NCBI GenBank assembly: GCA_913058245.1
Contig: CAJXQJ010000004.1
Coordinates: 62,001 to 126,000, forward strand
Direction of reading: 5' to 3'
DNA length: 64,000 nucleotides
From: an uncultured Colwellia sp.
GTDB lineage: Bacteria > Pseudomonadota > Gammaproteobacteria > Enterobacterales > Alteromonadaceae
The stretch's first letter is position 1. Every line of letters starts with the position of its first letter. The position numbers were made by a program, and so were the translations under genes. Shown one piece after another: positions 1 to 26,641 of the stretch. The notes beneath the pieces were generated by a model. It was not told the DNA's origin and did not search any database. It saw nothing but the letters and a program-made list of their open reading frames with translations.

Positions 1-378
1 GCTAAGCATTTCTTTACTCTTTTGCCAAGCAACTTTTGCTGCGGCTTTATCGGTTTCAGTGCTTTGCGTTTCCCAAGTAAACCCTGTTCCCATGACATGA
101 TGTTTAACAGGAAATTGCTTTAAAATGTTCATTTCGCCACATTCCCATTTCGAGCCTTTGATAAACTGCACAATACCGGCTTTTTGGCCGTGACCAATAG
201 CGCGTAAAACCGTACCAAAACCTGAAGTGCTTTTACCCTTACCGTTACCCGTTATTACCACTAAAACACCACGTTCTTCAGTCGCTTGAGCGACACGTTC
301 AGCAACCTCAGCTTTAATTCTTTTTTGGCGCTCAACATGTTTTTGTTCTTTATTTGCCAATTTCTCTTCGTTGTTCAT
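1..378 (-). CDS. cobO: Cob(I)yrinic acid a,c-diamide adenosyltransferase (CobO/BtuR), 3' end truncated by window edge
   Basis: Reverse translation from ATG at 378: MNNEEKLANKEQKHVERQKRIKAEVAERVAQATEERGVLVVITGNGKGKSTSGFGTVLRAIGHGQKAGIVQFIKG..., with the CobO P-loop GNGKGKST; open at the left edge. Confidence 0.93.
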   Translation of the reverse strand, partial: MNNEEKLANKEQKHVERQKRIKAEVAERVAQATEERGVLVVITGNGKGKSTSGFGTVLRAIGHGQKAGIVQFIKGSKWECGEMNILKQFPVKHHVMGTGFTWETQSTETDKAAAKVAWQKSKEMLS

Positions 379-392
379 AACTTTACTCTTAT

Positions 393-728
393 TTATTCGT
401 TACTAATTAAGATCAGTTTACCTGTTTCTGGGTCACGATAAACCTGTCCCATGGCTTGGTAACCTTCTTCGCTCTGTAATTTATTTTGTAATGTTTCTGG
501 CGGCGAGGTCATTTCTTTACCAACCGAGTCAACAGGTTGAATCATGGCTTTATTATCTGCTTTATTCATTTGAAAGTGTTGTTCTAAATCCGGGCTTACC
601 GCCACTAAAGCGGCAATTAAGCCACAGGCAAATACCAGCATAATATCAATCAAGTTAGCAAGCGGCCCTAACGGCTCTTGTTCTTGGCTGTCAAACTGGC
701 TACTTCTCCATGCGTCACTCATTGGCAT
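393..728 (-). CDS. DUF2149 domain-containing protein; ExbD/TolR-like single-TM protein
   Basis: 111 aa; TM segment PLANLIDIMLVFACGLIAAL resembles the ExbD/TolR TM with its conserved Asp; follows an ExbB-like gene. Confidence 0.8.
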   Translation of the reverse strand: MPMSDAWRSSQFDSQEQEPLGPLANLIDIMLVFACGLIAALVAVSPDLEQHFQMNKADNKAMIQPVDSVGKEMTSPPETLQNKLQSEEGYQAMGQVYRDPETGKLILISNE

Positions 729-731
729 TCT

Positions 732-1247
732 CTAGGCTGTTTTTGCTGAAGCATTAACATCAACTACTGGCGTTAGTTTAGCAGTATCGATAACAGGTTC
801 TGTAATTTCTAATCGCTCTAATTCTCCAATCGCATTGTCGTACCAACGTCGGCGCATTCGTCCCAGTACAAAACCTATAACACCAGCGAATAAACCAATA
901 ATAGTGGTATCAAATGCGACCGTCATCGCGGTCGTCAAAATACTGATATCACCAGAGCCAAGTGCAGCAAGACCGGGCCCTAATGGAATAAGCGTGCCCA
1001 TTAAACCTAACATAGGCGCAATGCGCGTAATAAAGTCGGCTCTTTCAATACGTTTTTTACCTTGGCTGATCAAGGCTTGCTTTTGCTTTGCTGCTTGTAA
1101 AGCAGGTATCACCGAAAGCCGTTCACCTAATGCTAAGCCAAATTCATAAATCGCCAAGCCAGTAAAAAACAATAAGCCCCATACCACAGGCTGAAGCAAC
1201 CAAGAGGTAATTAAATGCATAATATCTAATGAAAAACTATATAACAT
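732..1247 (-). CDS. MotA/TolQ/ExbB proton channel family protein
   Basis: MLGLMGTLIPLGPGLAALGSGD...AFDTTIIGLFAGVIGFVL is a TolQ/ExbB/MotA motif; start chosen at MLYSFSLD (1247), because the longer ORF overlaps cobN. Confidence 0.85.
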   Translation of the reverse strand: MLYSFSLDIMHLITSWLLQPVVWGLLFFTGLAIYEFGLALGERLSVIPALQAAKQKQALISQGKKRIERADFITRIAPMLGLMGTLIPLGPGLAALGSGDISILTTAMTVAFDTTIIGLFAGVIGFVLGRMRRRWYDNAIGELERLEITEPVIDTAKLTPVVDVNASAKTA

Positions 1248-1248
1248 A

Positions 1249-4200
1249 CTAACTTTCCTTCTCAACAACTGACAACTTAGGTAACTGACGTTGCGCCCGA
1301 ATATAACCAAATAGTATTAACAACAACACCACACTAATTAACCCAAGCATTAGAACTTTCTGCTCAAATGGCTGAGCTTGTTCACCTTCCTGACTAACAG
1401 TGTTTTCTTCAGTTGCAGGCGCACTATCATTAGGCACAACTTCATTAGTTTTTAACGGCTTAGTTGCCGCGGTTATTTCTTGAATATGCTGAACACCAGA
1501 GCCTTGTTCCCCGATAGGTGTGTGGTTTGCCGCAGCAAGCACCTGATCAAGTTGCTTTTGTAATGGCATAGATAGCATAGGTTTAATAAATGGATAAATA
1601 GGATGATTTGCATGCGTATGGCCACTGCCCGGAATACCATGTTCAACAATATTTTGCGCAAATTGCTCAGCAAGTTCGGTTTGCGTTTGTTGGTTAGCTT
1701 GCCAAAAGCCTTTTTCAATAGCCACAAGCATCACTGCCAAAATATTACTTTGCACATGCACGTTATGCTTTACTTGTAAAAATTCATCAAGGCCAAGCGC
1801 TAAACTGTCATCAATATAAATAGCTTTCAGGTCTTGCCAAGCCCAAGACTTAATAATTTCTGGGCTTGTTGCTTGCCAACCCCACAGGTTTTCAATGAAC
1901 TCACTACCCATGGTTCTTGCGCCAGCATAACCTTGCTTCATCAGCGGTTGGATCCATTGTCGATTTAAAAAGCGCCCGCGTAATTCTGACAATAAAGCAG
2001 TTTGCAGAGGGTCTATCGACAACTGTTGATTATTTGCGTGCGATATAACAAAGCTATTAGGTTGTTGACCAGCAATGGTTTCAATCGCTAAATTTAAGCC
2101 ACCTAAATAATCGTAGGCATCATTATTATCAATCAGGCCATACAAATTACTCGCGCGCCCTAGGTAAGTATTATTAACATTAGCCAGTTGCTGGCGGAAT
2201 AAACTTTGGACATTACTGCCTATCGCTGTATTTTCATTTGGCACTCCATAAGCGTGGCTCATACGTTTAATATACGCTTCGCCTAATTGCTTACGTTCTT
2301 GCCATGCGCCAGAGCGCTCAGCCAAACGATTAATACCCGCGCCATATGCACCGGGGGCGGTACCAAATATTCGATAACTAGCCTGACGGCCCAATAATTC
2401 AGCGCTGACTGCGCCATTGGCTCGCAATAGCGCTTGCGCTTCACGTAGCCAATTACTGGCAACCATATTATTTTGTATGCTTTCGTTGAAATTATGACTC
2501 TGTTGAGAAAGCATATGCTCAACCGGTGCTAATGCCGCATGCAAAGCGCTAATTAGTGCAGGGTGATCACGTTCAATAATGTTTTTACTGGCCGCTAATG
2601 CCAATAGTACGGAGCGATCTAACCACACCAATTGTTGAGCATATAAATCACGGAACAATCCAGAGGTGGTAAAAACAATATCTCGACGCTCCTTCCGTGT
2701 TTGATCAAGTGCTATCAATTTTAAAGATTTTAAAATACCACGTCGATTCCAAACCGGCTGTACGCCAAGCATGTCCATACCAAAAGCGATCATCGCACCT
2801 TCATCTCGCACCGCATCAGACGCCCATAAAATTACAGCTTCTTTATGGGGTTCATCGATAATTGCATTTTCTTCTCGGGCTTTAGTTGCCAATTGCTGAC
2901 CGGTAGCAAAACCTAACTGAGACGGTATTAAACCACCATCAAGTGCGTAAAAGTTCCGTCCTGTTGGCAAGGCGTCAGGTGTTCTAATTGGATCATTACC
3001 TTTGCCCGGCGCAACAAAACCGCCATTTAAAGCATTTAAGAACGCTGACATTTCACTGCTTGGTGATTTAATCAGGTTTTGCTCAATCTCATTACGTTTT
3101 TCATCGTCAAAGTCTAACTCGCCTTTTTCAATCGATACCATCATGGTTTCAATAGCATCTTGTTGCCAATCTTTACCATAAATATGCAAACCTAGCGGCA
3201 TAAAGTCTTCTTGTAATTTAGTGAGGTAATGCCCGACTTCATGCAGTAAAAAGTCATCATCAACCTCACCAAAACCAATACCACGAACTTGCAACTCTTC
3301 ATCCATACTGGCAACAAGTTCATCGGTTAAATTCAGCACTTCAATTTTATGACGCAACGCTTTAATCGCTTTTTTCTTGGTATCGTCATTAGATGCTGCC
3401 TCAGCACTTTCAATGAGTTGACGTAACTGCAATAAGCCGTCATATAATTCAGTCGTGGCCAAAGGTGGCGTTAAATGATCTAACATCACCGAAATACCGC
3501 GGCGCTTAGCTTGAATACCTTCACCGACGCCATCAACAATGTATGGGTAAATACTTGGAATGTTGTCGATAATTAGCGACGGGTAATCACTTGCTGATAA
3601 GCCAACCGCACGTTTAGGTAAAAACTCGTAGGTTGAATGTCGGCCTAAATGCACTACGGCGTTGGCTTTAAAAACGTCACGTAAATAATAATAAAAAGCC
3701 AAGTACTGATGCGGTGGTGGAAAAGTCATATTGGCATGTAACAATTCTTCATTTAACTCCCACCCTCTCGGCGGCTGTGGCCCTAAGAAAATATTACCAA
3801 ACTGAACACCAGGTAATAGAATTTCATTATTCCACACCATGGTTTTCCCCGGCACATTACCCCAACCACGAATGCCTTCAATTTGCATAGCAATTAGCGC
3901 ATTTTTCAGTTTTTCTGCTGATTGCCATTGCTTAACGGCAATCTTGTTATTTGCCTGTTTTAATGCGATGAAATGACGATATTGCTCAGTTAACTGTTCA
4001 AGTAAATTTAACGCACGGGCCCGCCCTTTGTGTCGAATTCCATCAAGGGCGTGATGTAAATCAACCGAGGTACTTTCAACATTGGCTAATAGGGCCTGCA
4101 AAACCTTATTACGCTCAACCGTTGAAAGCTGTGCTAGTTCAATTTGGCCTTGAGCAAAAAGATAAGTGTTAACTTGAGCATGTAAATGCCCTAACGGCCC

Positions 4201-5853
4201 CTCAATCATTTCAGCTTTAACAACATTAGGTAAGGTGTCGAAATACGCTTGGTAATCATTTACTGACATTTTATCGATCAGCGGTGACATTCTATTTAAC
4301 GCTGTGGCATCTTGCGGTAAGTTCACCGCTTTCAACTGTAATATATCGAGCAGTTCTTCAGCTGAACCAGGGAAGTCAGCTTCAGCGCCCAAATCATAAC
4401 CTTGCGCTTTTAATTGCTGTAATATTTGCCAAAGCGACTGTTGAACATCGAGGTTATCAGCACCTATATTGTGGCGACCCGGCGGATGATTATAATAAAC
4501 AATGGCTACTTTTTTCTTCGCGTTTTCAGTTGTTCTTAGCGCTAGCCAAGCACTTACTCGAACTTGTAGTCGTGCAACTTCTTTTGTTAATACTTCACTT
4601 ATAGATAAACTCGCACCGGTTAATGAGTCCAACTTAGCACTCGAAGCTAATGCCAATACATGTGGCTGTGAAACACCTTGTAGCTCAGGCATTGCCACCC
4701 GGTAATGTACACTGTCACTCGGTAAACCTGTTGGCGAAAGTTGATATTCCAAAGTGCTCATTTCGGTTACTCGAATGCCTTTAAATACAGGAACGTTCAA
4801 CTTTTCAAACTTCTGCGTAACTGGCTCGCGACCTTCACCACCACCAATAACAAAGTCTTGTAATGCGATAATAGCTAATGGCTGCGTAATTTTTAGATTA
4901 CGTATTATTTCAATTACTTGCTCACTCGGCTTCCCCCAACCAGCAAGCACAGAAACGCATTGCCATTGGCGCTGACATAATTGTTGATGTAGCTGCCATT
5001 GCCCAGGCTGATCGCCAGTATCGTGATCAATAATAAACACTAAGGGCTTATCTAGGTTTTTAGTTATATTATCCGCTAAATAAGCCTGACTGATCAGTTG
5101 CTCTTGCCAATAAAAACGTATCGGTTGCAAAGGCAGAATTTTTGGTGCTGCTGTTAAAGCAGTTGAGTTAGCGTTTGCTTGAGTAATAGTTTCTAGCCAA
5201 GTAAATAAGTGCCCTAAATTTTCTTTACCGCGATTTTGCCAATAAGCACGCGCTTGTAACCAATAAGCAAAGGCTGGCCATTGCTGTTGTTTAGCCTTGA
5301 GTGCAGACAAGTAATCATTCTTATCCAAGGCCGCCATTAAACTTTGCAACTGCTGCTTTGACAAATTGGCGGTATTACCACCATTGATATCTTGGTGTAA
5401 TGCCATTAAACGTCGGTCGGTATTTAGCATCAACCGTGCTTGCCCTTCTGGGTAAGTTAACGCTAACAAACGTTCAACTGACTCGCCAAATACACCAGCA
5501 ATAACTAACGCTTGATGTTGATTAATGAGCTGCTGTATTTCTTTGTTAGTCATAATATTTAACTGGCTAACACTGCGAATATTAATACTGCTAGATGTTT
5601 TATCGACACTTTGTGTCGCTAAAAACTGATGCCCACCCGCAACCATACTGGCAGCTGATCGATCAGACACCAACGCAAGCATTTTCATTTCACTGGCTTG
5701 TAAGCTGGCAGCACTTAAAAAGGTGATTAGCCAAAAGGCCATCAAAAAAACTCTATTTACCTGACCTTTTTTAAGTAAAGGTTTTATCGTGTGTTTGCTA
5801 ACAATGGCGCTTGTCATGAGAACTCTCAAAAAAACTAAATAAACTGTGCTCAT
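1249..5853 (-). CDS. cobN: CobN/magnesium chelatase H-type large chelatase subunit, exported and membrane-anchored variant
   Basis: 1534 aa; CobN/BchH motifs (YYNHPPGRHNIGADNLDV, GPQPPRGWELNEELLHANMTFPPPHQYLAFYYYLRDVFKANAVVHLGRHSTYEFLP, LHEVGHYL). N-terminal signal-like segment (VFLMAFWLITFLSAASLQA) and C-terminal TM (VLMLGLISVVLLLILFGYIRAQRQ). Start could also be 5817. Confidence 0.92.
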   Translation of the reverse strand: MSTVYLVFLRVLMTSAIVSKHTIKPLLKKGQVNRVFLMAFWLITFLSAASLQASEMKMLALVSDRSAASMVAGGHQFLATQSVDKTSSSINIRSVSQLNIMTNKEIQQLINQHQALVIAGVFGESVERLLALTYPEGQARLMLNTDRRLMALHQDINGGNTANLSKQQLQSLMAALDKNDYLSALKAKQQQWPAFAYWLQARAYWQNRGKENLGHLFTWLETITQANANSTALTAAPKILPLQPIRFYWQEQLISQAYLADNITKNLDKPLVFIIDHDTGDQPGQWQLHQQLCQRQWQCVSVLAGWGKPSEQVIEIIRNLKITQPLAIIALQDFVIGGGEGREPVTQKFEKLNVPVFKGIRVTEMSTLEYQLSPTGLPSDSVHYRVAMPELQGVSQPHVLALASSAKLDSLTGASLSISEVLTKEVARLQVRVSAWLALRTTENAKKKVAIVYYNHPPGRHNIGADNLDVQQSLWQILQQLKAQGYDLGAEADFPGSAEELLDILQLKAVNLPQDATALNRMSPLIDKMSVNDYQAYFDTLPNVVKAEMIEGPLGHLHAQVNTYLFAQGQIELAQLSTVERNKVLQALLANVESTSVDLHHALDGIRHKGRARALNLLEQLTEQYRHFIALKQANNKIAVKQWQSAEKLKNALIAMQIEGIRGWGNVPGKTMVWNNEILLPGVQFGNIFLGPQPPRGWELNEELLHANMTFPPPHQYLAFYYYLRDVFKANAVVHLGRHSTYEFLPKRAVGLSASDYPSLIIDNIPSIYPYIVDGVGEGIQAKRRGISVMLDHLTPPLATTELYDGLLQLRQLIESAEAASNDDTKKKAIKALRHKIEVLNLTDELVASMDEELQVRGIGFGEVDDDFLLHEVGHYLTKLQEDFMPLGLHIYGKDWQQDAIETMMVSIEKGELDFDDEKRNEIEQNLIKSPSSEMSAFLNALNGGFVAPGKGNDPIRTPDALPTGRNFYALDGGLIPSQLGFATGQQLATKAREENAIIDEPHKEAVILWASDAVRDEGAMIAFGMDMLGVQPVWNRRGILKSLKLIALDQTRKERRDIVFTTSGLFRDLYAQQLVWLDRSVLLALAASKNIIERDHPALISALHAALAPVEHMLSQQSHNFNESIQNNMVASNWLREAQALLRANGAVSAELLGRQASYRIFGTAPGAYGAGINRLAERSGAWQERKQLGEAYIKRMSHAYGVPNENTAIGSNVQSLFRQQLANVNNTYLGRASNLYGLIDNNDAYDYLGGLNLAIETIAGQQPNSFVISHANNQQLSIDPLQTALLSELRGRFLNRQWIQPLMKQGYAGARTMGSEFIENLWGWQATSPEIIKSWAWQDLKAIYIDDSLALGLDEFLQVKHNVHVQSNILAVMLVAIEKGFWQANQQTQTELAEQFAQNIVEHGIPGSGHTHANHPIYPFIKPMLSMPLQKQLDQVLAAANHTPIGEQGSGVQHIQEITAATKPLKTNEVVPNDSAPATEENTVSQEGEQAQPFEQKVLMLGLISVVLLLILFGYIRAQRQLPKLSVVEKES

Positions 5854-5925: not shown

Positions 5926-7371
5926 TTAGAAACATCGATTTTTATTAAAAATACGTAAGGTTAAACCTGGGTTACTCGGGAAATACCAATGCATATAAGA
6001 GGCAAGTATATTGTTATGCTGATAAACATATTCGCCTGCTCGTTCGCTTGGATGATGGGTTGTTTGGCTAATCGGCGTTAAATCAATTTCGGCACAAGAA
6101 TAATGAAAACTATGCCCGCGCATAATATTACTAGACATTTCACCTTGGTTTTCAGCTGAACTTTCAGGCTCAATGTTATCTTTATCTATCACAGATAAAT
6201 CAACCCATTGCGAACCTATTGCCGCGAGCTTTTTCTGCATTGCGGCTTTACCTGGTATAAGGCCAAGCATCGCAATTTGTTGACCTGATATATCCGTTAG
6301 TTGCTCAAGTAAATACAGCATACCGCCACATTCAGCAATTATCGGCTTATTGCTAGCAGCAAAGTTTTTAATATCACTTAAAAAAGTTTCATTATTCATT
6401 AACTTTTCAGCATACAACTCTGGATAGCCACCAGGAATATATAAAATATCTCCTTCGGGTAACTTGTTATCATTCAATGCCGAACAATAGGTAATTTCAG
6501 CGCCAACTTGTTCTAAAAAGGCAATGTTGGCAGCATAGATAAAACTAAAAGCATTATCACGCACAATAATAACGCGAGTACCCACCAAAGCACGATGGAT
6601 AAAGTCTTCTTGACTGTCATGTTCCACAGCAAAAAATTCCACTTGTTCGGGTAACTCGGTCAAGTCGGTTTTAGCGATATGACTAGCAGCTTGGTCAAGT
6701 TGGCTATCTATATCAGCTAGTTCTTGTGCTTGCACTAAACCTAAATGGCGTTCAGGTAAAGTGACACCGTCATCTTTTGGTAAACGTCCGTAAAAACGAA
6801 ATTCTTCCGGCAAACTGGTGCTCAATAACTCAGCATGACGTTCGGTATTAACGCGATTGGCAATCACACCAGAAAACGGTAAATCCTCCCGTAGCTTAGC
6901 AAGGCCAAAGGTAACAGCAGCGAATGTTTGTGCCATGGCTTTGGCATCGATAACGCCAAGCACCGGAATATTAAAATATTGGGCTAAATCAGCACTACTT
7001 GGCGTGCCATCGAATAAGCCCATGACACCTTCAATAAGAATAAGATCAGACTCTAAAGCTGCACGATGAAGTAGTTCTTGGCAGCCCTTTTCACCAACTA
7101 ACCATAAATCTAGTTGATAAACCAATTCACCACTGGCTTGGCGTAAAATCATCGGATCAATAAAATCAGGACCAACTTTAAACACCGTTACTTTACGTCC
7201 TTGATTACGATGATATCGAGCAAGCGCAGCGGTTACTGTAGTTTTCCCTGAGCCAGAGTGTGGCGCGGCAACAATTAAGGCTGAGCACATTGCACCACTG
7301 CCAGTTTGGCGCTCAAGCTTGCCATGAAAAGCAGGGATTGGTTTCGCTTTTTCTATCTGACTCATTGCCAT
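5926..7371 (-). CDS. cbiA: Cobyrinate a,c-diamide synthase (CbiA/CobB)
   Basis: P-loop PHSGSGKTTVTAAL; glutaminase-like GGYPELYAEKL, AECGGMLYLLE, MRGHSFHYS. Confidence 0.93.
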   Translation of the reverse strand: MAMSQIEKAKPIPAFHGKLERQTGSGAMCSALIVAAPHSGSGKTTVTAALARYHRNQGRKVTVFKVGPDFIDPMILRQASGELVYQLDLWLVGEKGCQELLHRAALESDLILIEGVMGLFDGTPSSADLAQYFNIPVLGVIDAKAMAQTFAAVTFGLAKLREDLPFSGVIANRVNTERHAELLSTSLPEEFRFYGRLPKDDGVTLPERHLGLVQAQELADIDSQLDQAASHIAKTDLTELPEQVEFFAVEHDSQEDFIHRALVGTRVIIVRDNAFSFIYAANIAFLEQVGAEITYCSALNDNKLPEGDILYIPGGYPELYAEKLMNNETFLSDIKNFAASNKPIIAECGGMLYLLEQLTDISGQQIAMLGLIPGKAAMQKKLAAIGSQWVDLSVIDKDNIEPESSAENQGEMSSNIMRGHSFHYSCAEIDLTPISQTTHHPSERAGEYVYQHNNILASYMHWYFPSNPGLTLRIFNKNRCF

Positions 7372-7976
7372 TACACCTTATCTTGTGATGATTTGGCTAA
7401 GCCTTTATCGGTCAAGAAATGGCTGATGGTGAAATCAATCACAATTGCCGAAATCGCATAAAATACCGGATTAGAAATTGAGCGGAAATAGTATTTATCA
7501 ACACGCGTTGCATATTCAGCCCATGACAATTCTGGGAATTTTCCTGACAAGGCATAGTAACTGCCATTGGAAATGAAGAAGGCAATTGAACTAGCAACAA
7601 ACAAGCCTAAAGCAACTTTAATAATATTATTTTGCCATGCGCTTTGCTGCCAACTAGGTTTAGCGTAAAAGCCAGCCGCAAACATAACCCCATAACTCAA
7701 TACTAGCGCAGGATAAGAGGTGGTAATACAATCGCCAAATTGCCCGCGAAAATACGACGAGGCAAGATCAATCACTAAGGTTAAGGTATAGAAAAACCAA
7801 AACGCTTTCATATTGCGTAAGTACATGCCCGCTAAAAAGAAAATAGCAATAGAAGCACTAGGTAAGTGATTTAAACTAGCAAAATGATGGGTGCGAGTTG
7901 CCAACATTAGCAAAGTTAATACTGCAAATATTGCAAAAAGTAAGCTAATTGGCGTTTTTTGGTTGACTGATTTCAT
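7371..7976 (-). CDS. Multi-TM membrane protein, predicted cobalamin/cobalt-related transporter
   Basis: 201 aa, several hydrophobic segments; first gene downstream of a B12 riboswitch; ATG overlaps the next gene. Confidence 0.6.
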   Translation of the reverse strand: MKSVNQKTPISLLFAIFAVLTLLMLATRTHHFASLNHLPSASIAIFFLAGMYLRNMKAFWFFYTLTLVIDLASSYFRGQFGDCITTSYPALVLSYGVMFAAGFYAKPSWQQSAWQNNIIKVALGLFVASSIAFFISNGSYYALSGKFPELSWAEYATRVDKYYFRSISNPVFYAISAIVIDFTISHFLTDKGLAKSSQDKV

Positions 7977-8169
7977 AACATTCCCGTGTGCGATAAATAT
8001 TTACGGAGTTGGAAATCAAAGTTGGTAAGTGCTTATAAAGTAAAAGTTTTACAGTAACAGCTGGGCTACTAAGTCATAAATCTTAAACTCATCACATTGT
8101 CTATTGAATAGATAATGCAAAAATCAGTTACTAAGCTCTGAATGACCGCCCACCGCAGTTGTCGAGTAA

Positions 8170-8312
8170 TTTTAGGCCGGTCTCCGGACTCCTGTTCATC
8201 GCTTTTGCAACACCTTCCCATATTTATCAATACAGTGGTTTTGTTGCTGCTCACAGTTACCGTTGCGGGGGCAGTACTGGTTTCTCACCAGTTTCACGTT
8301 TCACCTTCAGTT
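8170..8312 (-). promoter_or_regulatory. Cobalamin riboswitch upstream of the membrane protein-cbiA-cobN-exbB-like-DUF2149-cobO operon
   Basis: Reverse strand reads CTGAAGGTGAAAC...GGTGAGAAACCAGTACTGCCCCCGCAACGGTAACTGTGAGC...GGGAAGGTG...AACAGGAGTCCGGAGACCGGCC: B12 core CCCCGCAAC plus B12 box. Confidence 0.92.
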
Positions 8313-8576
8313 ATTAAACTTCTCTCAAAAAGTAGAATAATGTGAAGACACCTAAATCAGCGCTGATGTTACGTGATGATGGCGATTTATTCAATCAATA
8401 ACCAAATTATTAGCACTAAAGAACTAAGTGCGAGGTTGATACTCAATAAAGCAATTTCGACAACAACTTCATTTAATCATTTTTGCATTGAATCAGCGGA
8501 ATGATTTGGTTATTCTGCGCTTCTACTTAACCACCCGTTTTGTCAGCAACTTAGCGCAAACAGAGTAATATTAACA

Positions 8577-19976: not shown

Positions 19977-21041
19977 ATGGAACTTGGCATGAGAGATAGC
20001 GCGACAATATTAGTTGTTGATGATGCACCTGAAAACATTGATATTTTGGTAGGCATATTAAAACCAAACTATCAGCTTAAGGTGGCACGCGATGGAGAAA
20101 TGGCTATAAAAATAGCCAATATTCAGTCTCGCCCTGATTTAATATTATTAGATATTATGATGCCAGGTATCGATGGCTACGAAACCTGTAAGCGTTTAAA
20201 ACTTGATATTGCAACGCGTGATATTCCTATCATTTTTATAACCGCCAAAATTTCAGTTGAAGACGAAGCCAGAGGGCTTAGTTTAGGTGCGGTTGACTAT
20301 ATAGCAAAACCAGTTAATCCAGCCATTGTAATGCAACGGGTAAAAACACACTTGGCATTGAGCGACCAGAAGCGAGAACTGTATCAAAAAGTAAAAATGC
20401 AAACCCAAGAACTCATCAATACCCGTTACAACATTATTCAAAAATTAGGCCGCGCAGCAGAATTTAAAGACAATGAAACAGGAAATCACGTTCAACGTAT
20501 GAGTAAGTATGCCTATATTCTTGCCATTGCTTGTGGCATGGGCGAAGAAAACGCTGACTTACTAATGAATGCTGCCCCGATGCACGATATTGGCAAAATA
20601 GGCGTACCTGACCATATTCTTAAAAAGTCAGGAAAACTCGATGACGATGAATGGAAAATAATGAAAGAACACGCCGCCTTTGGGGCAGAAATTCTTGATG
20701 AAAAAAATCCATCACAGTTAATGAAAACGGCTAAAACAGTGGCTGTAACACACCATGAGAAATGGGATGGCAGTGGCTACCCCAATGGTTTAAAAGCGGA
20801 AGAAATTCCATTAGAAGGCAGAATAATTGCCATAGCAGATGTGTTTGACGCATTAACTTCACAGCGCCCATATAAACCGGCCTGGACCATTGAAAGCACA
20901 ATAGAGTTAATCAAAAATGAATCAGGGAAGCACTTCGACCCTCAATTAGTAGAATACTTTATTGATAATTTAGACGAAATTCTTGCTGTTAAAGCGCAGT
21001 TTTCTGAAGAATCCGCACAGAGTACACAAACTATATGTTAA
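19977..21041 (+). CDS. Response regulator with HD-GYP domain (putative c-di-GMP phosphodiesterase)
   Basis: Receiver [29 protein letters not shown] plus HD-GYP motifs [42 protein letters not shown]. Confidence 0.93.
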
Positions 21042-24000
21042 GTTTTTTTCGCATTACCACTAAATTTACTCACTTCTTATCAGCACTATTGATGCTTATC
21101 TGCACTACAAGCTTGGCTGCAGAAACAGAAAAAGTAACTATTCAGCTTAATTGGACACACCAATTTCAATTTGCTGGCTACTACGCTGCCATTGAACAAG
21201 GATACTATCAGGAGTTAGGCATAGATGTTGAATTACGAGAATTTAACGGTGATGGCGCGATTGAAGATTACGTCGTAAATGGCAATGCAGATTACGGCAT
21301 CAATAACTCCAGTTTAATTGTCGCGAAAAACAATGGCAAGCCAGTGGTTATTGTTGCGCAAATATTTCAGCACTCCCCTTCTACACTTGCCACCTTAAGT
21401 TCATCAAATATTACCACGCCGTTTGATTTAATAGGTAAACGAATTATGGTTGACTCAAGTAGTGAAAACTACGCATCAATCATAGCTATGCTTAAGCAAG
21501 CTCAACCAGAAACCTCTGGCTTTATATGGCAAGAACAAAGTTATAACTTTTCTGCTTTAGCTAATGGTGAAAGTGACGCTATGTTAATTTATCGCACTGA
21601 TGAACCTTTTAAATTTTCCAAAGAAAACATTGATATATTCATTATTGACCCACGTGACTACGGTATAGACTTCTATGGTGACAACCTATTTACTAGCGAA
21701 GAAGAAGTAAAAAATCACCCACAACGTGTACAAGCTATTCGTCAAGCAACGATCAAAGGCTGGCAATATGCTTTAAACAATAAGCAAGAAATTATCTCGC
21801 TAATTGAAAGAAAATATAATAGCCAAAATAAAACTCACGAACATCTCATTTTTGAAGCAGAAGAAATCAACAAAGTTATTCTAGCCAAGTTTATTCCTAT
21901 TGGTTCAATTGCCCGCACTCGTATGGAAAAAATCACTGAAACCTATTACCAACTAGGTATGGTTTCTTCGCCTGTTTTACCAGATAACATCTTGTTAGAA
22001 GATGCCCTAGCACAGTTTTCTCCAAAACAAATGAACCATGATAAAAGCATTTCATTGATCATCATTATGGTAGTTATTTCATTATTGCTAATTTCTTCAA
22101 CACTCTTACTACCTAAATTGATCACAGCAAAACGTCTTGCTATTTTTATGGCTTCAAGAAGGTTTCCCGTTATTGTTCATTCCATATCTATTCTTAATAT
22201 TGCCATAATATTTACGGTGATTTACTTAACATTGCAAGATAATGAAGAAAGCACCCAAGCCAGTATGAAAAAGAACTTAGAGTTTGTTGTAGGGGCAACA
22301 AAATCAAGGCTAAATGACTGGATAATGGATCAAGAAAACTTGTTAAAACAAATCAGTAATGATGACGAGGTAGTTAATTTAACCCAAGAATTATTATTGC
22401 AACCAACATTAAAAGCTTCGCTCTTAACATCAAATCCATTACAAAATATACGCGAGTATTTTCGTCAAAGCAGTGTTGATGGCCAAGGGTTCTTTATCAT
22501 CAATCAAGACTATATCAATATTGGCTCAAGTCGAAATGAAAACCTAGGCCAAATCAATTTAATTGCTAAACAACAGCCAGATATATTACCCGCGGTATTC
22601 GCAGGTGAAACCCACTTTGTATCGCCGATAAAGTCAGATGTCAGCTTAAGCTTTGGCAACACGCGCAGTCCAATAGACCAATACAGTATGTTTATCGTGA
22701 CACCAATAAAAGACCATGAAGAGAATGTCATTGCTGCACTAACCTTGCGCGTGCAAGCGAGTGGGCATATCTCCAACATTCTCCAGCAAGGTCGCATTGG
22801 CGCATCAGGCGAAAGCTACCTGGTAAATACACTAGGAGAAATGCTATCTAAAAGCCGGTTTGAAGCTGATCTTTCATCAATAGCTTACTTTAAAAACTTA
22901 AACAAAAACGAACAACTCATTTCACTAAAGGCGCCTAAAGTCGATATTACCCTAGCAAATAGTGCTGAGGTCGATGTTAGGCAACAGCCATTTACTTTTA
23001 TGGCTAATGATTTAATTAATAATGTTCGACCTGATAGTCAAAACATATTAAATAAAAACAAAGTAGCCTCGAATGTTATTGGTTATAACGATTATCGTGG
23101 GATCAGCGTATATGGTGCTTGGGTTTGGGATAGCAAACTTGGGTTTGGTATCGCGACTGAAATCGATGCGGCAGAGGCTATGCATGGAGTTAGCTCACTA
23201 AGAAACAAACTCATGCTAATTTCATTTGTAACCTTATTGCTCACGTTAACTTCTAACATTTTTACAGTCACGGTAGGACAACGCTCAACAAAATATATGC
23301 GCCGCTCAAAAGAAGAGTTGGAAAAAATTGTTGAACAGCGCACACAAGAGTTACAGCAACGTGAACGCGCAATGTGGGAGTTATATGAACATGCGCCTGT
23401 TGCCTATGCAACATTAAATCCTAAAGGTGAATTTATTAAGCACAACTGTGCGTTTGCTCATTTATTTAAACGCCCGAGAGAAATATTCACTTCGCTGAAC
23501 TGGCAAGAGTTTGTAGCTGAGGAATATTACGTCCATCAAATATTTTTGACCAAATCTCACTTATTAGAATGTGAAATTCCCGTAGAAATAAGCAACACAC
23601 AAACAATAGATACCATGATGTCAGCTTTGCCGGTATATGATGAAAATGAACAACTTAGTGAAGTGCGTTTAACCTTAATTGATGTAACCCAACAAAATGC
23701 AGCAAAAGCACAATTTGCCGCATTAATGGAATCAGCGCCGGATGCGATTATATTACTCGATAAACATCGCGAACATAGTTTAGTCAATTCACAAGTTCTC
23801 TCAATGTTTGGCTATGAAAAATCAGAACTCATTGGTCAGAAAATTGAACGTTTGTTGCCAGAAGAAGTAAATTCACATGTCTTTGAGCAACTAATTCACC
23901 AAAAAGAGCCACAGAAACAGTTAATAGAGCTTACAGGAAAGCGAAAAAACAATAGTGAATTCTCCGCTGAAGTAACCGTAAGTTCTCTCGACATCCACAA

Positions 24001-26641
24001 CGATAGGTTTATTGTCGCGATTATTCGTGATATTACCGAAAGAAAACTAAACGATGCAGCACTAACAGAGCAAGTGCTCTTTCAACAAGCGTTAGCTGAT
24101 ACCATTCCATATCCTATTTTTGTTAAGGGACCAGACGCTAGATTTATCAATGTGAACACTGCTTATGAGCAAACCTTTAATGTTAAAAGAGAAGATATTA
24201 TTGGCAAAACGGTGCTCGATTTAGAATATATACCACTTGCCGAGCGACAAGCATTTCAAAAAGAAGACCTTGAAGTTATCGCTTCAATTGGCGTGGTAAA
24301 AAAAGAGTTATCGATGGTTTATGGTGATGGTCTAGAACATAACACCATGTATTGGGTAAAAGGCTTCGAAAAAGCCGATGGCAGTGTTGGCGGCTTGCTA
24401 GGAACTTTTGTTGATATCAGCGAACAAAAAATGGCAGAGCAAGCACTCGCTCATGCAAAATCTCTTGCCGAAGATGCCGCCAAAGCCAAATCAAATTTCT
24501 TAGCGAATATGTCACATGAAATACGTACACCAATGAATGCTATTATCGGCATGTCATCTCTTGCACTTAAAACACAGTTATCTCCCCAGCAAGAAAATTA
24601 TATATTTAAAGTTAATCGAGCGGCGGAATCATTACTTGGCATTATTAATGATATTTTAGACTTTTCCAAAATTGAAGCTGATAAGCTCGACATTGAATCA
24701 ATTCCATTCTCCTTAGACGATATTCTCGACAATCTCAGTAACATGCTGATCGACAAGCTCACAGAAAAAAGAACTGAACTGATATTTGATGTTGAGCAAA
24801 ACGTACCGATTGATCTTATCGGTGATCCGCTGCGCTTAGGACAAATACTCACTAACTTAGGTAGCAATGCGGCAAAATTTACCGAGCATGGTGAAATAAG
24901 AATCAACATTTCATGTGTTAACAAGCATGATGAAAGCGTCACCTTGAAGTTTTCTATTTGCGATACTGGAATAGGAATGAGTGCCGAGCAACAAGAAAAG
25001 TTATTTCAATCTTTCAATCAGGCCGATGCATCAACAACGCGAAAATATGGTGGTACTGGCTTAGGGTTAGCAATATGTAAACGCTTAATTGAACTATTAG
25101 GTGGTGAAATTTGGTTAGAAAGTGAAGAAAACATTGGTAGCCAATTTCATTTCACCATCAGTTATCAAACACAATCAGCAGAACAAGCAAAGGCAAACAA
25201 ACCTCATTTATCTTCTATTCAAGGACTAAAACTTGCCTTAATAGAAGATAACGACACCTACAAATCAATTTTACAGCGTATCTTGAAGTCATTTGGCTTT
25301 ATTGTTGAAAACTATAATTCTGTTATTGAGGCTTTGCCTGAGCTTAGCCAACAAGCTAATGCATTTGACGCATTAATTTTTGACGTAACTAAATGCAGTG
25401 ATAACCAAAACTGTGCTGACATTTATTCAATTCGCGATGCTTGCCCAACACTACCAATTTTGCATATCTTGCCAAACCGCAGAGAGCTACCGATAGAAGC
25501 ATTGAACGAGGGTGATAATTACTACGTTACCTGTAAACCGATTACCTCTTCCAATTTGCTCGATAGTTTATTAATTACTTTAGGCCAAGAAAACTTAAGA
25601 AACCTAAAATACAAAGTCATGCCATTAGAAGAGCAAGCAGCTATTGACGCATTACAAGGAGCCAAAATTCTTCTTGTTGAGGATAATGAAATTAATCAGG
25701 AGCTTGCAACCGAGCTGTTAACGCACCACAACATCCTTGTTTATGTTGCCAATAATGGTCAAGAAGCTATTGACTTCCTTGATAACGAAACCGTTGATGG
25801 CGTATTAATGGATTGCCAAATGCCCGTTAAAGATGGTTATACCGCCACCAGAGAATTACGACAAGATGCACGCTTTACCAATTTACCCATAATTGCCATG
25901 ACAGCTAATGTGATGGCAGGCGATAGAGAAAAAGCTCTGCGCAGTGGCATGAATGAGCACATAGGTAAACCCATTAATACCAGTGAATTATTTACTAAAT
26001 TGGCGCAATGGGTTACCCCTAGTGATCATAGTGCAACAGCAAGCTCGGCAACGACTGGCAGTAGTGACGGTGAAATTATCCCTGAGCTTTATGGTATTGA
26101 TACCAAAGCAGGTTTAGCAATTACACAACAAAACACCACTCTTTATCATCGCTTATTAGTTAAATTTAAAGACAATTATGCAGAGGCTATCACTCCTATT
26201 GCCACGGCACTTGCACAAGGTGACTTCTCAACGGTGGAATACTTGGCTCATACACTAAAAGGAGTTGCAGGCAATATTGGCGCGTCAAAACTTTATAAAT
26301 TGGCAGACAATATTGAAAATGCAGCAATAAAAGAAATGGGAGATCCTGACTCTATTGCTCAAGCAACTCATGAACTTATGCAAATACAGCATGATTTAGT
26401 TAAAATTAAACCCGCTCAAGATAAAAGTTCGACTTTTAATCCCGAGCTTTGTAAAAAGCACCTAAAACAATTACAAAATGAAATTGAAAACTATGATGTT
26501 GCAGCACTAGATACCATTCAAGCACTGCTGCCTATGGTAGAACATCAGCAATCTAAAAAAACATTATCACAAGTGATGGAAAAAATTGAAATTTATGATT
26601 TTGACGAAGCCGTATTACTCCTTAATAATGTAGATTTTTAG
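21035..26641 (+). CDS. Hybrid sensor histidine kinase: NMT1/THI5-like periplasmic domain, Cache-like domain, PAS repeats, HisKA, HATPase, two receivers, Hpt
   Basis: [26 protein letters not shown] (NMT1); two TM segments; PAS/PAC boxes; [21 protein letters not shown] (H box); [19 protein letters not shown] (G box); [19 protein letters not shown] (receiver); [13 protein letters not shown] (Hpt). Confidence 0.93.

Follow-up and report, generated by a model that had tools for sequence, protein, structure and literature searches.

The window, that is, the whole 64,000-nt stretch of DNA analysed, originated from a Colwellia-like genome that is 66.9% complete. It started with a minus-strand operon consisting of a cobalamin riboswitch followed by the genes for a 201-aa protein with multiple transmembrane (TM) segments, CobB, a CobN-like protein, an ExbB-like protein, a DUF2149 protein and CobO. 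The features of this operon, together with those mapped within the CobN-like protein (W denotes the clade of this protein, described below), were as follows:

8158..8370, minus strand: cobalamin riboswitch aptamer, operon leader (RF00174, 102.7 bits, E 1.4e-24, above the gathering cut-off)
7371..7976, minus strand: 201-aa multi-TM protein, family unknown, first gene of the operon
5926..7371, minus strand: CobB/CbiA, cobyrinate (or hydrogenobyrinate) a,c-diamide synthase (PF07685 and PF01656; TIGR00379 above cut-off)
1249..5853, minus strand: CobN-like class I chelatase large subunit of W type, predicted to be exported and C-terminally anchored (PF02514, 782 bits)
5695..5751, minus strand: N-terminal hydrophobic segment VFLMAFWLITFLSAASLQA, signal peptide or anchor (residues 35-53)
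4957..4977, minus strand: Cys293 and Cys299, putative disulfide (conservation pattern)
3637..3639, minus strand: His739 in the W motif HxGRHSTYEF, equivalent of the HmuS catalytic His538 (81/81)
2119..2121, minus strand: Asp1245 in the W motif DNND-x-[FY]DYLGG, at the HmuS His1209 site (81/81)
1300..1356, minus strand: C-terminal TM helix and basic tail (hydropathy)
732..1247, minus strand: ExbB/TolQ/MotA-type short protein (PF01618, 37.5 bits, above cut-off)
393..728, minus strand: DUF2149 (HmuV-like) protein with one TM helix (PF09919, 49 bits)
1..378, minus strand, running off the window: CobO/BtuR cob(I)yrinate a,c-diamide adenosyltransferase (L006:9761-10378, NF004637/TIGR00708 above cut-off)

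The initial annotation had reported a CobN-type gene, an ExbB-family gene and a DUF2149 gene in a row, and the Pfam scores above agree with all three; the riboswitch, the cobO gene directly downstream and a second CobN/ExbB/DUF2149 locus with a HmuY gene had not been recorded. Intergenic gaps within the trio were a few bp at most, the natural ATG of the ExbB-like gene being at 1247 (1310 in the list of open reading frames), and the true start of the CobN-like protein may be Met13 or Met38, as judged by start context. The 201-aa protein had no match in Pfam or NCBIfam, and its gene was kept upstream of cobB across Colwelliaceae. The wider neighbourhood represented a corrinoid uptake and salvage set that included CobQ, CobU, CobS, CobT, CbiB, CobC-like phosphatases and a periplasmic binding protein, with a TonB receptor behind a second riboswitch; cobS and cobT of the window were the nucleotide-loop enzymes, as had been correctly stated. 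At 19977-26641 of the window, an HD-domain response regulator and a hybrid kinase of 1868 aa whose sensor part is NMT1/THI5-like were encoded, and relatives of these two genes were located directly upstream of the W operon in another locus (L060).

In a phylogenetic tree, canonical CobN, the gammaproteobacterial hmu-type proteins and the window type (W) formed three groups, each with an SH-aLRT value of 100. W loci were sampled by a GTDB genome scan, from which the best 80 of 244 relatives were taken, and members occurred in Pseudomonadota, Campylobacterota, Nitrospirota, Nitrospinota and Myxococcota. Among these best 80 of the 244 relatives, the gene order CobN-ExbB-DUF2149 was kept in 79, while the 80th locus was cut by a contig end and retained part of the ExbB gene. 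A separate set of 198 genomes from the order contained 11 with a DUF2149 gene above cut-off, and each of these also carried a CobN-like gene; the two adjoined on one contig in 9 of the 11 and lay on different contigs in G095 and G110, fragmented assemblies of 450-600 contigs. The linkage, which the initial annotation had mentioned for other genomes, is far beyond chance. The W contexts in Nitrospirota, Nitrospinota and Gammaproteobacteria included BtuB, BtuFCD, CobB, CobO, CobU/S/T and BluB; many trio loci had no receptor in the operon, and no metal-transporter neighbour of the HmuT/UreH/DUF2162 kind was conserved in W operons. No description of the W clade was found in the literature searched, and important older papers lie outside that search.

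A cobalamin riboswitch was located ahead of the operon in at least 56 of the 80 W loci (best 80 of 244 relatives), a count that includes seven Colwellia loci with the riboswitch at the operon head. A motif scan, which gave 0 hits in 862 kb of shuffled sequence, found 39 direct cases, four of them weak hits; one of the weak ones, L130, possessed a better riboswitch at the operon head. Rfam revealed ten more riboswitches among the W loci that the motif scan had missed. In L136 and L138, the riboswitch preceded the gene before CobN, and these two were left out of the 56/80. A different position was observed in three Nitrospirota loci (L103, L109 and L111), where a riboswitch directly followed DUF2149 and was succeeded by a siderophore-type TonB receptor, with a PepSY_TM protein after the receptor in L103 and L109.

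Export and membrane anchoring of the CobN-like protein, proposed in the initial annotation, are well supported as predictions from sequence. The C-terminal hydrophobic helix of the window protein comprised 19 residues with a mean KD of 2.87 and a tail of +2. By simple hydropathy thresholds, an N-terminal segment was detected in 66/81 relatives and a C-terminal one in 65/81, fractions that are rough because the reading-frame starts in GC-rich relatives were mechanical, versus 0/17 canonical CobN proteins of the same order with either segment. Both Cys293 and Cys299 were present in 76/81, neither in 5/81 and a single one in 0/81, an all-or-none pattern that would be expected of a disulfide in an oxidising compartment. 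The equivalents of HmuS His538 and Glu577, the catalytic pair, were invariant in W (81/81), and those of His534, His538 and Glu577 were conserved in every group, that is, canonical, hmu-type and W. The W-specific motifs GRHST and DNND-x-[FY]DYLGG were found in 81/81 at the positions checked. HmuS His506 seemed to be lost in W, but this was disregarded, since the local alignment is possibly off by one residue. The window protein scored below every NCBIfam CobN/BchH cut-off (best, 618.9 versus 1619; TIGR02257, 504.5 versus 822).

The ExbB-like protein had two TM threonines, Thr85 and Thr115, conserved in 80/81, and its AF2 model (pLDDT 92.9) had ExbB/TolQ as the nearest PDB folds (E about 0.03, probability near 1). 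For the DUF2149 protein, the resemblance to ExbD/TolR suggested in the initial annotation held for the TM aspartate, Asp28, which was invariant (80/80). At the level of profile and fold, hhalign placed Asp on Asp with a probability of only 2-2.6, and the model, of low pLDDT (64.8), had no PDB match; hhalign, a PDB profile search and Foldseek gave no support for DUF2149 as ExbD beyond this residue. The genome of the window possessed separate TolQR and TonB-type ExbBD loci.

The best match of the window CobN was HmuS (PDB 9d26, E 1.3e-102), the closest solved structure. HmuS is a membrane-anchored CobN homologue and haem de-chelatase, encoded with ExbB-like HmuU and the DUF2149 protein HmuV (PMC12583661, PMC10434189, PMC13227078), and the purified protein de-chelates haem without HmuTUV (PMC12583661). 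The CobN-like/ExbB/DUF2149 architecture is thus not new, being that of the HmuS/BtuS haem de-chelatases, and the general idea in the initial annotation had already been published for HmuS with HmuU and HmuV. HmuS and W shared the CobN fold, membrane anchors at both ends, His538/Glu577, the ExbB-like and DUF2149 partners and the lack of an AAA+ partner. However, W fell in a separate clade with the gene order CobN-ExbB-DUF2149 and was accompanied by a cobalamin riboswitch and cob genes, whereas the HmuS operon contains HmuY/HmuR. The HmuS motif LSLDHxxEFMGG, which includes His1209, was replaced in W by DNND-x-[FY]DYLGG, W having GRHST in addition, and an Asp at the His1209 site was also present in the gammaproteobacterial hmu-type proteins. 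Moreover, the long Met-rich insertion of HmuS domain IV was missing in W, the aligned region having 84 residues in the window protein versus 283 in HmuS. A second CobN/ExbB-like/DUF2149 locus of the same genome (L005, 7865-16861), with HmuY, a TonB receptor and DUF3429, represented a haem-type system, and the presence of this separate hmu-type locus indicates that the two systems are paralogous.

Similar arrangements have been described elsewhere. In Bacteroides fragilis, hmu-like operons behind a cobalamin riboswitch have been noted (PMC10100974), and the BtuS proteins are predicted to be periplasmic (PMC6460266); the exported, anchored CobN-like protein and the cobalamin riboswitch are features in common with W (PMC6460266, PMC10100974), but BtuS1/BtuS2 belong to Bacteroidota, were tested for haem iron only and were set beside W by description, outside the present tree. 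The cobN cluster of the Geobacter plasmid has also been described (PMC3403914): pSZ77 of Trichlorobacter (Geobacter) lovleyi resembled W in having B12 riboswitches, ExbB-like, DUF2149 and CobN proteins and no reported CobST (PMC3403914), whereas its CobN was about 31% identical and outside the W clade, its gene order differed, and its cluster, from a B12 producer, contained its own exbB-exbD-tonB. In this cluster (L153), two tandem cobalamin riboswitches took the lead and a DUF2162 gene was included. Canonical CobN (CobNST, or CobN with ChlI/D) had PF02514 and the catalytic His in common with W, but differed in being soluble without signal or TM segments, in having AAA+ partners and in belonging to cobalt-late synthesis.

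Most W carriers appeared unable to make the corrin ring. In whole-genome searches, CbiC/CobH, a corrin-ring marker, was absent in 45/49 W genomes; three W genomes with CbiC also carried CbiD, indicating the cobalt-early route, and Azotobacter was the one W genome with CbiC and without CbiD, possessing a canonical CobN too. CbiD and a cobalt-early route were also observed in G023, whose cbi cluster was read by eye from translations. Other PF02514 genes were found as none in 37 of the 49 genomes, canonical CobN in 1 (Azotobacter) and another type in 11. The genome of the window, at the completeness given above, had no CbiC and two TP-methylase genes only, taken for RsmI- and CysG-type by length and context. 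No CobT or strong ChlI/D-type subunit was found in this partial genome, G016, G023, G120 or G193, in agreement with the earlier view that no AAA+ partner serves this CobN; in the order sample, all 17 canonical-CobN genomes had both CbiC and a ChlI/D-type subunit. CobB was present in 38/48 W genomes without CbiC versus 1/25 W-negative genomes of the order, a control set taken irrespective of salvage-gene content. The weight of this co-occurrence is lowered by the presence of CobB in 46% of precursor salvagers generally (PMC6461909).

Taken together, we consider the W CobN to be a paralogue, on the corrinoid side, of the periplasmic HmuS/BtuS de-chelatases that functions in corrinoid salvage and is probably coupled to the proton-motive force (PMF), a reading to which we assign a probability of roughly 0.6. 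At low B12, the operon would be switched on for salvage in bacteria mostly unable to make the corrin ring. The CobN-like protein would be anchored to the inner membrane, its class I chelatase part lying in the periplasm. A dedicated partner in the same membrane would be formed by the ExbB-like and DUF2149 proteins, which would probably pass PMF to it; such a supply is suggested by the gene linkage and by the lack of ATP and AAA+ motors in the periplasm. The likeliest reaction, put forward tentatively, is that Co(II) is inserted into scavenged corrinoids that lack a metal or carry the wrong one, after which CobB, CobO, CobQ, CbiB and CobUST would complete the corrinoid product. Somewhat more doubtful is the fuller proposal of a periplasmic PMF-driven cobaltochelatase serving salvage in B12 auxotrophs, in which the ion-channel pair takes the place of the AAA+ ATPase of the cytoplasmic enzyme. 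Cobalt-free corrinoids are produced by some purple sulfur bacteria under cobalt shortage (PMC6771967), and loading such molecules with cobalt would benefit a salvager. Removal is disfavoured because demetallating corrinoids would cost the cell vitamin and is difficult chemistry, cobalt resisting removal from corrins and not being chemically removable without ring damage (PMC6771967). However, HmuS, which is encoded with the same partners, removes the metal and does so in vitro without HmuTUV (PMC12583661), both of which speak against the reading given here.

The main rival, although unlikely in our judgement, is an uptake machine without any chemical step, in which periplasmic corrinoid is bound by the CobN-like protein and PMF is used by the pair either to pass the corrinoid on or to energise BtuB. 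This would fit the control by low B12, the BtuB/BtuF neighbours and the presence of the unit in bacteria that do not synthesise the ring, as well as the hmu literature, in which HmuUV is assigned to powering the outer-membrane receptor HmuR (PMC12583661, PMC10100974). However, the catalytic His/Glu and the motifs around them are invariant in 81/81, and many trio loci lack a receptor in the operon. The proposal that the channel pair is the Ton motor of the cell was weakened by the separate Tol and Ton loci of the genome and by the Trichlorobacter cluster, where the pair occurs together with a separate exbB-exbD-tonB, which argues that the pair is not that motor.

Less likely still is a cobalt-harvesting de-chelatase that, like HmuS, would act in the periplasm and strip the metal from corrinoids taken up by the cell or from cobalt complexes of other kinds. 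Homology and partners shared with HmuS (PMC12583661) point in this direction, and a general function in metal release is suggested by related units associated with nickel (the hyp cluster of Runella) and with zinc (P. aeruginosa PA1922-1925, PMC4542158). Nevertheless, 45/49 carriers could not use free cobalt for ring synthesis, so that breaking down corrinoids when B12 is scarce would hardly be sensible; the resistance of corrin cobalt to chemical removal and the lack of a conserved transporter neighbour of the HmuT/UreH/DUF2162 type argue against it as well. That the window protein is a true HmuS haem de-chelatase brought under B12 control by chance is very improbable: HmuS is indeed its closest solved structure, but the riboswitch is of the cobalamin type, W lacks LSLDH as well as the long insertion in domain IV, and an hmu locus with HmuY and a receptor exists elsewhere in this genome, so this identity was rejected on motif, insertion and operon context. 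The proposal of the initial annotation that the ion-channel pair may replace the AAA+ motor, taken as cobalt insertion in B12 synthesis and consistent as it is with the CobN fold, the cobB/cobO neighbours and the lack of CobST or ChlI/D in five W genomes, is largely refuted, because the distribution of CbiC, CbiD and CobN, including the cobalt-early route in three carriers and in G023 and the canonical CobN of Azotobacter, indicates that ring synthesis does not use W as its insertase, and because W CobN falls below all NCBIfam CobN/BchH cut-offs and canonical CobN in the order sample is always accompanied by CbiC and a ChlI/D-type subunit.

Cobalt-chelatase genes in bacteria unable to make the corrin ring have been noted before without explanation (PMC6461909); for the W clade, such genes resolve into a fixed, mostly B12-controlled three-gene unit with an intact chelatase site. 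As a corrinoid-salvage chelatase, the W unit would broaden the range of HmuS-type machines from haem to corrinoids and raise the question of whether class I chelatases outside the cytoplasm are driven by ion-channel pairs; the routine annotation of W genes as B12-synthesis enzymes would be corrected.

Two plasmid-borne loci differed from the arrangements described above. In the Runella slithyformis plasmid (L155), ExbB-like, DUF2149 and anchored CobN proteins were encoded within a hyp hydrogenase-maturation cluster, next to a protein annotated as a urease accessory, which suggests a nickel version of the unit. In the plasmid of Marinobacter sp. M3C (L152, 5010-9212), a W-type CobN gene was located between cobB and cobO; the signal-like start of the protein was kept, and the C-terminal TM segment and the ExbB-like and DUF2149 genes were absent. 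This may be a natural soluble variant, for which the ExbB/DUF2149 pair is perhaps dispensable, or a decaying copy.
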